A stretch of DNA of 64,000 nt, from the NCBI GenBank assembly GCA_030537695.1, contig JAUNVJ010000005.1, positions 1,650-65,649 on the forward strand, written 5' to 3'. This DNA is from Tissierellia bacterium (GTDB lineage: Bacteria > Bacillota_A > Clostridia > Tissierellales > Peptoniphilaceae). The translations under genes and the position numbers were made by a program. The notes below the pieces were generated by a model. That model was not told the origin of the DNA and did not search any database. It worked only from the letters and a program-made list of their open reading frames with translations. Positions 60,642 to 64,000 of this stretch are shown piece by piece; the stretch's first letter is position 1, and every line of letters starts with the position of its first letter.

Positions 60642-61883
60642 TCAGCTATTTGCCTTTTCTTTTATTTCTCGATTCTTTTCCATGGATTCAATAATAGCAT
60701 CTGCCATAGAATTCATGTCATTTTTGTTTGCTACGTTTAGAGAAGTGTTGATGGTAACTCTTTCATTGAGAACGTCCATAAGTTTTAGATGTTCATCTAA
60801 GAAATCCTCCATCTTATCTCCAACGGTACAAGCCCAAGTTCCATTTTCGATAATTCCTACTGTTCTATTTTGTACATTGAGAGCTTCCATATCCATTATA
60901 AAGTTTTTCATAATCGGATAGATTCCCAGGTTATAGGTCACGGAAGCCAGAACAATATGAGAATATCTAAAGGTGTCGGAAATCAATTGGGAGAAATGTG
61001 TATTGGATACATCATGGACCACTACATTGGTCATGCCGCGATCACAAAGGGCAGCAGCTAGAGTTTGGGCTGCAAACTCCGTGTTTCCATACATGGAAGC
61101 ATAGGCAATCATAACCCCTTCTTCTTCCGGTTCATAGCTGGACCATTTGTCGTATTTGTCAATAAACCATCCTAGATCGCTTCTCCAAACCGGTCCGTGT
61201 AGGGGACAGATCATTTTAATATCAATAGTTCCCGCTTTTTTCAATACGTCTTGAACGAAGGGTCCGTACTTGCCAACGATATTGGTATAATATCTTCTGG
61301 CAGAATCCAACCAATCTCTTTCAAAGTTCACTTCATCATTAAATAGTTTTCCGTCTAGAGCACCAAAGCTTCCAAAAGCATCTGCTGAGAATAAAACACC
61401 ATTGGTCGTGTCAAAACTCATAATAACTTCCGGCCAGTGTACCATCGGTGCTTCTATAAACATAATCTCGTGTTTTCCAAAGGAAATCGTATCTCCTTCT
61501 TCTACGATAATACAATTTTCATCTTTGATATGGTAGTATCCAATTTGACGCATGATTTCAAAACCTTGCTCGGAACTGATGATTTTAAGATCCGGATAGC
61601 GGATTACCATTTCATCAATAGCTCCGCAGTGATCAGGTTCCATATGGTGTACAACGAGATAGTCAAGATCTCTTCCGTCCAATACGCCTTCTACTTTTCG
61701 AATATAGTCTCTGGCAATGGACCAGTCCACTGAATCAAATAATACCGTCTTCTCATCTAGTAATAAATAAGAGTTATAAGATACTCCTTCCGGAATCGGA
61801 AAGATGTTTTCAAATAGTTCTAAGCGATGATCGTTTCCTCCAACCCAATAGAGGTCCTCCGTAACTTTTCTTACACCGTACAT
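60642..61883 (-). CDS. fprA: Flavodiiron protein (A-type, FprA)
   Basis: This cytosolic enzyme reduces O2 to water or NO to N2O with electrons from rubredoxin. The 413-aa protein has an N-terminal metallo-beta-lactamase domain with the diiron ligands H80, E82, D84, H85 (HMEPDH), H149, D168 and H229, then a flavodoxin domain (about 256-400, FMN loop YASMYGNTE). No rubredoxin or flavin reductase domain is fused to it. The gene lies 16 bases after an acyl-CoA dehydrogenase that ends in a rubredoxin, which could be its electron donor. Confidence 0.95.
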   Translation of the reverse strand: MYGVRKVTEDLYWVGGNDHRLELFENIFPIPEGVSYNSYLLLDEKTVLFDSVDWSIARDYIRKVEGVLDGRDLDYLVVHHMEPDHCGAIDEMVIRYPDLKIISSEQGFEIMRQIGYYHIKDENCIIVEEGDTISFGKHEIMFIEAPMVHWPEVIMSFDTTNGVLFSADAFGSFGALDGKLFNDEVNFERDWLDSARRYYTNIVGKYGPFVQDVLKKAGTIDIKMICPLHGPVWRSDLGWFIDKYDKWSSYEPEEEGVMIAYASMYGNTEFAAQTLAAALCDRGMTNVVVHDVSNTHFSQLISDTFRYSHIVLASVTYNLGIYPIMKNFIMDMEALNVQNRTVGIIENGTWACTVGDKMEDFLDEHLKLMDVLNERVTINTSLNVANKNDMNSMADAIIESMEKNREIKEKANS

Positions 61884-61899
61884 ACTAATCCTCCTTTAA

Positions 61900-63828
61900 T
61901 TATTGTCTGTCAGCTGGAAATTCTTCTTCAATGAAGTTTTGCTTTTCTTCTTGACATTCGGGGCATACCCAATCTTCCGGTAAGTTTTCAAATGTTGTAC
62001 CAGGATCGATTTCCCCTTCCGAATCTCCAACATTTGGATCGTATTCATAACCGCAACCGGGACATACCATAACATCATAGGTTGGAGCTAATTTACGAGG
62101 TTTGGATCTTCTTACCTTTTTCATTGGTGGCGCTGGATCTTTTTCGCCGGTTCCTAATTTTTCAGCAAGAACAGGCATAATCTCCATCATATCTCCGACG
62201 ATTCCATAATCACAGTTTTTAAAGATTGCTGCACCAGGATTTTTATTGATTGCAACGATGGTCGCTGCATTTTTGATACCTTTTAAGTGTTGAGAAGCAC
62301 CTGAAATTCCACAGGCAATATATAAGTTTCCATTAAATTTCTGTCCGGACATACCTACATATCTCTCAAGGGGTACCAATTTCATAGTTTCTGCAACAGG
62401 TCTGGATCCACCAAGAGCTGCACCGGCAGCATGGGCAAGTTCTTTTGCTATGTCCATATTTTCTTCTCCGCCGATTCCTTTACCAACGGAAACGACTCTT
62501 TCTGCTTCGTAAACCGGTGTATCAATATCAATTCCTACTGAAAAGTCATATCCATCTTTTTCCAAGTTTTTAACCAGGATATCTACCGCTTCTTCTACTG
62601 TATCTGCATCTATAATTTCTCTTTTTCTATTGCCAGTAATAGGACCTTCTTTTTTTGCCCCTACTCCTGCACCTTTTTTTCTTTTTGGTAATTTACCAAT
62701 AATACTGGATGCAATAACGACTCTTTGAATTTCGTTAGTACCTTCGTAAATGGTAGTAATCTTAGCATCACGATAGAATCTCTCAACGTCCATACCTTTT
62801 AGGTATCCATTACCTCCGTGAATTTGAAGTGCATCATTGACTACTTCCAAACAAATATCCGAAGCAAAGTTTTTAGACATGGCAGCTTCCATGGAATATC
62901 TTTCGTGACGATCTTTCATTGCCGCTGTTGAATAAATCATCAATCTAGCTGCATGGAGTTTTGTTGCCATATCGGCAATTTTAAAAGATACAGCTTGTTG
63001 TTGAGCAATGGGGCGTCCAAATTGTACCCTTTCTTTCGCATACTTAACAGCCGCCTCATAAGCACCTTGCGCAATTCCTAAAGCTTGAGCTGCAATACCG
63101 ATTCGTCCACCGTCCAAGGTCTGCATAGCAATTCTAAAACCTTGTCCCTCTTGACCCAGTAGATTTTCCTTTGGTACTTTAACATTGTTAAAGATTAATT
63201 CTGCTGTTGAAGAAGAACGAATACCTAATTTGTCATAATGGTCTCCAAAGGTAAAGCCTTCCCAACCTTTTTCCACGATAAATGCAGAAATTCCATGGGT
63301 TCCGATTCCCGGAGTAGTTACTGCAAAAATAATATAAATATCAGCTTTTGGAGCATTTGTAATAAAGATTTTTCCACCGTTTAAGATGTAATGATCTCCA
63401 TCCAGTTCCGCTGTGGTTTCCGTACCACCGGCATCAGATCCTGCCTCTGGTTCCGTCAAACCGAAGGCTCCGATTTTTTCACCCTTACAAAGGGGAACCA
63501 AGTATTTTTGTTTTTGCTCTTCTGTACCAAAAGCTTCAATCGGATATGCGCCAAGGGAAGTATGTGCCGATAGGATAACTCCGGTACCTCCATCTACTCT
63601 GGACAATTCCTCAACAGCAATGGCATAAGAAATTACGTCCAATCCTGCTCCACCATACTCTTTAGGTGTCGGAATCCCCATCCAACCGTTTTCACCCATT
63701 TTCGCTACTGCTTCATCGGGAAATTCATTTTCTTGGTCAAGTCCAAAAGCGATAGGCTTTACTTCAGCTTCCGCAAATTCTCTAATAGCTTTACGAAGAG
63801 CTTCATGCTGTTCAGTAGTCTTATACAT
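61900..63828 (-). CDS. Acyl-CoA dehydrogenase fused to EtfA-type FAD domain and rubredoxin
   Basis: This 642-aa protein has three modules. Residues about 1-380 are a butyryl-CoA-type acyl-CoA dehydrogenase with FAD loop [14 protein letters not shown] and catalytic base E362 (YEGTNEIQR). Residues about 403-560 match the FAD-binding domain II of electron transfer flavoprotein alpha ([45 protein letters not shown] as a split signature, DYGIVGD); EtfA domain I is almost absent. Residues about 583-632 are a rubredoxin with C589, C592, C622, C625. The start ATG at 63828 follows AAGGAGG. Neither EtfB nor thiolase genes are visible before the window ends. The acyl-CoA substrate is not known. Confidence 0.9.
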
Positions 63829-63867: not shown

Positions 63868-64000
63868 TTGACAATGTTTTCCATCCTCTAAAAAATAAAA
63901 AGCAAAACAAAAGTCAAATACTTTCAATCTGTACTAATAAAGTATAATATGAATATAGTTTAGCACATAGATATGATCAAGTCAAAATTGACAATGTTTT
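63868..64000. repeat. 13-bp direct repeat in the leader of the fusion gene
   Basis: TTGACAATGTTTT occurs exactly at 63868-63880 and 63988-64000, 120 bp apart. One copy lies just upstream of the -35 and the other in the 5' leader, a layout that would suit an operator pair with looping. No regulator is identified. Confidence 0.5.
63957..63985 (-). promoter_or_regulatory. Candidate promoter of the acyl-CoA dehydrogenase fusion-fprA operon
   Basis: On the minus strand TTGACT (63980-63985), 17-base spacer and TAAACT (63957-63962) would give a leader of about 120 bases. Confidence 0.55.

Follow-up and report, generated by a model that had tools for sequence, protein, structure and literature searches.

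The window analysed here, a stretch of 64,000 nucleotides from a Tissierellia bacterium, carries two genes on its reverse strand, one for a fusion protein of the butyryl-CoA reductase (BCR) type and one for a flavodiiron protein (FDP), together with the following features:

61900..63828, reverse strand: BCR-type fusion of 642 aa, acyl-CoA dehydrogenase + EtfA domain II + rubredoxin (open reading frame, Pfam, alignment)
62701..63816, reverse strand: acyl-CoA dehydrogenase part of the fusion, residues 5-376 (Pfam; best solved relative C. difficile Bcd, 5ol2_C)
62149..62631, reverse strand: EtfA FAD-binding domain II, residues 400-560, without domain I (Pfam ETF_alpha)
61933..62070, reverse strand: rubredoxin domain, residues 587-632, with Cys 589, 592, 622 and 625 (Pfam, alignment)
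61884..61899, reverse strand: 16-base gap with a ribosome-binding site, AAAGGAGGA (sequence)
60642..61883, reverse strand: class A flavodiiron protein of 413 aa (Pfam, alignment)
63930..63946, reverse strand: candidate operator-like dyad TATACT-N5-AGTACA (weak), near the likely promoter (motif scan)

The fusion is read from the ATG at 63828, which has AAGGAGG on its 5' side, and a TTG start at 63927 was rejected as a mechanical extension of the reading frame. Pfam recognises Acyl-CoA_dh_N (residues 5-117), Acyl-CoA_dh_M (121-216) and Acyl-CoA_dh_1 (228-376), followed by ETF_alpha (440-519, E 5.7e-26) and Rubredoxin (587-632, E 1.2e-18). PF01012, the family of EtfA domain I and EtfB, is not among the Pfam families found in the fusion, and domain I is therefore taken to be missing. 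The initial annotation had proposed exactly these parts, namely a dehydrogenase with its catalytic Glu intact, an EtfA domain II lacking domain I and a four-cysteine rubredoxin on the same polypeptide, and all of them are borne out. The Glu of the YEGT motif, which we take from family knowledge to be the catalytic base, is E362 (codon 62743-62745, reverse strand); it aligns with the same motif in 5ol2_C and is identical in 60/60 aligned BCRs, the window's counted. The rubredoxin cysteines C589, C592, C622 and C625 occur in 59 of these 60 rows, the exception being one Anaerococcus sequence. In the EtfA site, R476, S494, S509, Q513, H514, N528 and D540, presumably flavin contacts as judged from ETF structures, are identical in every row (60/60, again with the window's), which speaks against a loss of FAD at this domain. 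The rows also share the signature GMSGQ[KT]F (60/60; G-M-S-G-Q being residues 492-496 of the window fusion), and the motifs GQTGKTV and GVTGKRI are found, respectively, in ten EtfA proteins from genomes of BCR relatives and Brachyspira and in one fused EtfA.

In the predicted model of the window fusion, the EtfA part reaches a pLDDT of 78-96 per ten residues (401-560) and the linker at 383-393 stays below 50. No solved structure of the whole fusion is among the structural matches listed (best 60 of 206; best 50 of 881); those listed are dehydrogenases, the best of them spanning about 380 residues. The dehydrogenase part closely resembles C. difficile Bcd (5ol2), with an E value of 8.1e-144 by phmmer and an identity of 60% in the structural match, but the matched chain of 5ol2 is a dehydrogenase alone, 378 residues long and without rubredoxin; in that butyryl-CoA dehydrogenase/EtfAB complex, EtfA and EtfB are separate subunits.

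The FDP gene follows 16 bases after the fusion gene, as initially noted; the two share one strand and each is preceded by a ribosome-binding site. According to Pfam, the protein consists of an ODP beta-lactamase domain and a flavodoxin, with no extra domain and no rubredoxin of its own. All seven diiron-ligand positions, assumed by us from knowledge of the FDP family and placed by alignment to 6etb, are kept (H80, E82, D84, H85, H149, D168 and H229), and the combination of a beta-lactamase-like diiron domain with its ligands, a flavodoxin and nothing further is that of a class A flavodiiron protein. Further downstream, the order prfB-pyrF-pyrE (gene names by sequence reading) recurs at two related loci (L012 and L016). 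On the other side, the window stops 172 bases 5' of the fusion ATG and the gene upstream lies outside it. The dyad in this interval resembles dyads that lie 5' of BCR in a number of Peptoniphilus and at a few further loci, and it is retained as a lead only: of 81 upstream regions scanned, 15 (the window, nine Peptoniphilus and five others) contain TATACY-N5-RGTATA, a motif partly drawn from the scored sequences, with at most one mismatch, and the other 66 show two or more mismatches. A 13-base sequence, TTGACAATGTTTT, is also seen twice 5' of the fusion (63868-63880 and 63988-64000, 120 bases apart), and these are its only two copies on the forward strand of the window.

The pairing of the two genes is widely conserved. 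At least 571 relatives were found, and the best 80 loci were kept; these are 71-84% identical to the window BCR, and the closest named ones are Peptoniphilus and Urinicoccus species, most at 80-84%. An FDP frame lies downstream on the same strand in 79 of these 80, the remaining locus (L061) ending 81 bases past the BCR frame. Two of these 79 FDP frames are short, that of L056 because a contig end cuts it and that of L079 with 259 aa. The same domain set is possessed by all of the best 120 matches listed (the window's own counted), and together with the gene order in 79/80 this indicates that the fusion architecture is not a product of chance. Moreover, a sample of 245 genomes from the class of Eubacterium callanderi, which partly overlaps the best 80 relatives (at least one genome is in both), gave 74 genomes with a match. 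Fifty-nine of them lack a full-length match and were left out of the adjacency count; their matches are confined to the dehydrogenase part, with some alignments reaching residue 449 through stops. An FDP adjoins the BCR in all 15 genomes with a full-length BCR, a number that is a lower bound because at most five candidates were scored per genome. Hence the three-domain order next to an FDP gene, for which the initial annotation had suggested a survey, proved conserved in other genomes (79/80 and 15/15). In Brachyspira the FDP adjoins the BCR at 20 of 21 loci, the exception (L111) ending 214 bases past the BCR. A fusion in the reverse order is seen at a locus of Eubacterium callanderi (L090), where EtfA domains I and II precede an acyl-CoA dehydrogenase in a protein of 779 residues and an EtfB-like gene lies upstream.

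A pair of this kind has already been described. As outlined in a 2025 review (PMC12288474), a multidomain protein of Fusobacterium nucleatum joins a butyryl-CoA dehydrogenase to the EtfA C-terminus and a rubredoxin, and is bicistronic with the FDP FN1423. The pair, FN1424/FN1423, is the butyryl-CoA oxygen oxidoreductase (BOOR, consisting of BCR and FDP; primary report Bystrom and Wolthers 2024, doi 10.1021/acs.biochem.4c00279, via PMC12288474 and PMC12630350). In the review's account, the complex couples butyryl-CoA oxidation to the reduction of O2 to water and has no NO reductase activity (PMC12288474), and the relevant passage of PMC12630350 gives the same description. By description, the window pair agrees with it in the three domains of the fusion, EtfA being represented by its C-terminal part alone, and in the two-gene arrangement with an FDP. 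The organism differs, and no Fusobacterium is among the organism names shown for the matches listed. A 2026 preprint (PMC13404960) finds this domain structure in Roseburia inulinivorans as well, shows the pair in gene neighbourhoods of Eisenbergiella tayi and Faecalibacterium prausnitzii, and places the pair of gut Clostridia beside an Rrf2 regulator gene. These homologues share the architecture of the window pair as the preprint presents it (PMC13404960), but the corresponding upstream side of the window pair lies outside the window. In our own survey, an Rrf2 gene stands just upstream of the pair in Eubacterium callanderi (L029) and Eisenbergiella tayi (L036), the BCR of the latter being 73% identical to the window's.

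The features of BOOR recur in the window pair, i.e. a dehydrogenase with its Glu, EtfA domain II only, a four-cysteine rubredoxin and an adjacent FDP gene, and the 16-base gap, the common strand and the conserved adjacency suggest a single operon as in BOOR. By analogy with the F. nucleatum complex, we consider it very probable that the window pair is a BOOR, which would couple the oxidation of butyryl-CoA, or a similar short-chain acyl-CoA, to the reduction of O2 to water; that the window protein has the same substrate and activity as this homologue, and the order of its inner electron steps, are likewise inferred. In the proposed mechanism, the dehydrogenase part would oxidise butyryl-CoA (or the similar short-chain acyl-CoA) to crotonyl-CoA, and the electrons would then move to the FAD of the EtfA domain, from this FAD to the rubredoxin iron, and from the iron to the FMN and the diiron site of the neighbouring FDP, where O2 would be reduced to water. 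The EtfA domain would be tethered in cis, so that no EtfB would be needed. A wire from acyl-CoA to O2 through these same carriers was the core of the initial annotation; it fits the F. nucleatum homologue as the review describes it (PMC12288474), and it is right but already known rather than new. The annotation had left the final acceptor as O2 or NO, and only the first of these holds up. Taken as a group, flavodiiron proteins are reductases of O2, of NO or of both, but NO as the physiological substrate of the window pair seems extremely improbable given that the homologous complex is described as having no NO reductase activity (both PMC12288474).

Two sets of genomes bear on the idea that the fusion may work without a normal EtfB partner. 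In three Peptoniphilus and one Urinicoccus genome (G001-G004), no separate EtfAB pair was found immediately upstream of the BCR; the PF01012 matches are either on a different contig or at least about 90 kb from it. Among 26 Brachyspira genomes, the ETF_alpha domain is present in 25 and PF01012 in 15. Of the 11 genomes without PF01012, ten possess a BCR, which supports independence from EtfB; in G028 and G029 a contig end truncates the BCR frame, and G027 (2.0 Mb) lacks BCR and PF01012 alike. These absences are provisional, because the completeness of the assemblies is not given. One could still regard the window protein as an ordinary dehydrogenase that is served by a separate EtfAB, with the EtfA piece and the rubredoxin as remnants and the FDP fed by another donor. 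Separate EtfAB are indeed encoded elsewhere in close relatives, and one genus, Anaerococcus, has lost the rubredoxin iron ligands (see below). However, remnants would hardly be expected to keep identical flavin-site residues in 60/60 rows, a BCR in 10/11 Brachyspira genomes that lack PF01012 and a nearly constant FDP neighbour (79/80, best 80 of at least 571 relatives), and we give this explanation almost no credence.

The Brachyspira genomes also bear on the direction of the reaction. The fusion is published under the name butyryl-CoA reductase (PMC12288474), which would agree with a reverse mode in which crotonyl-CoA is reduced to butyryl-CoA with electrons supplied through rubredoxin or the FDP, and in four of the 11 EtfAB-less Brachyspira (G010, G022, G024 and G025) the BCR is the only PF00441 match. 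Against this, the constant neighbour of BCR is a flavodiiron protein, EtfA-I/EtfB domains are found in 15/15 BCR-bearing genomes of the class sample, and eight of the 11 EtfAB-less Brachyspira encode at least two reductases of the FabV/Ter family, whose use of CoA esters is undecided. The 15 EtfAB-bearing Brachyspira each have exactly one such reductase; among the other EtfAB-less genomes, G011 and G027 have one each and G029 none, so that at least one is present in 10/11. All six copies scanned match NCBIfam FabV models, and for two copies the nearest solved structures are a trans-2-enoyl-CoA reductase and TDE_0597; because models and solved relatives point differently, these enzymes are best called FabV-or-Ter. 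The reverse feed of low-potential electrons to enoyl-CoA reduction, which the initial annotation had offered as the other option, is hence not favoured, and we rate the reverse mode as very unlikely.

For the preferred reading as an oxygen-reducing BOOR, the neighbourhood in Brachyspira provides a hint at the substrate. A gene of the butyryl-CoA:acetate CoA-transferase type lies 7-65 bases upstream of the BCR in 17 of 21 loci; two of the other four are cut by contig ends, and two belong to genomes without a match for the transferase gene (G009 and G011). The three copies scanned all exceed the curated cut-off, the others being assigned by similarity (the loci are L075, L110, L112-L115 and L118-L128). 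A similar CoA-transferase gene appears, in the stretch examined, in only one of 79 other loci (best 80 of at least 571 relatives), and for the window enzyme the sequence data do not fix the acyl chain length within the range of short-chain acyl-CoA. In the EtfAB-less Brachyspira, an NADH-dependent reductase may make butyryl-CoA that the BCR-FDP pair reoxidises with O2, which would amount to an NADH oxidase without bifurcation. A literature search (best 15 of 67) gave nothing on point for Brachyspira butyrate enzymes, which does not show that they are unpublished.

A new finding outside the window concerns Anaerococcus, where a full-length BCR is present in 29 of 31 genomes. In all 29 the four rubredoxin cysteines are replaced by Asp-Ser-Ser-Ser (L169-L188 and L207-L215), and in all 29 an FDP still adjoins the BCR directly downstream, with the seven ligand positions kept in 20/20 of the adjacent FDPs checked. 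Among 314 collected proteins, D-S-S-S occurs in 67 (P0226-P0292). Of the other 247, four cysteines are present in 236 and three in one, and the remaining ten were missed by the cysteine pattern; eight of these ten show CxxC...CxxC by eye and two are short frames without a rubredoxin domain. The simplest reading is a single origin of this loss, because the proteins nearest to the D-S-S-S type (P0293, P0294 and P0296; 77-80% identity) retain the four cysteines, and the tree groups its seven Anaerococcus sequences in a single clade (FastTree support 1.0). No description of the ligand-less variant was found among the papers listed in a literature search, which does not show that it is unpublished.

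The domain itself seems to be maintained. By the Nei-Gojobori method, the median dN/dS of the rubredoxin segment is 0.126 in Anaerococcus (20 sequences), close to the value of 0.103 in Peptoniphilus with iron ligands (13 sequences); these ratios are rough because silent sites have diverged strongly (pS about 0.5). On the other hand, within Anaerococcus the rubredoxin is the least constrained part (dehydrogenase 0.060, EtfA 0.088), while the parts are alike in Peptoniphilus (0.102, 0.116 and 0.103 for dehydrogenase, EtfA and rubredoxin, respectively). The models give the rubredoxin fold about the same confidence whether or not the cysteines are present, as pLDDT per ten residues is 70-80 in A. 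hydrogenalis P0226 (581-640) versus 67-82 in the window fusion; the linker of the former (385-394) also falls below 50. A separate small rubredoxin is matched in 31/31 Anaerococcus genomes, and the seven of these proteins that were read, from six genomes, have four cysteines each.

Some Anaerococcus also have a variant in which the domain is lacking altogether. Fourteen genomes (L189-L202) encode a rubredoxin-free paralogue of about 560 aa, composed of dehydrogenase and EtfA-II, and in 13 of them a second FDP gene adjoins it in divergent orientation, once with a transposase-like gene between; this second FDP is 40-43% identical to the window's and keeps the diiron ligands in 13/13. In the remaining genome (L197) the paralogue lies beside CoA-transferase-like and thiolase-like genes instead (names by sequence reading). 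Four genomes (L203-L206) have a third form of dehydrogenase-EtfA-II fusion, with 51-52% identity to that of the window; it lies between 3-hydroxybutyryl-CoA dehydrogenase-like and CoA-transferase-like genes (names by reading), with no FDP near.

Since the Anaerococcus BCRs have lost all four ligands and the FDP is still adjacent, the rubredoxin iron may be dispensable in the BCR family. Going further, we see an even chance that the iron is no obligatory relay, and that the Anaerococcus domain is a metal-free docking or spacer element under purifying selection, with which the paralogue has dispensed; the FDP flavin would then receive its electrons from the EtfA FAD either directly or via the small rubredoxin.

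The window pair alone changes little, because it adds a further copy of an oxygen-reducing enzyme already known from butyrate-forming anaerobes. The energy benefit of BOOR has been tied to the bifurcating dehydrogenase in the account of PMC12288474, and the Brachyspira gene content suggests that the pair survives where EtfAB, and hence this dehydrogenase, is missing. The natural Anaerococcus variants without iron ligands, in turn, allow a direct test of the path that electrons take inside BOOR.
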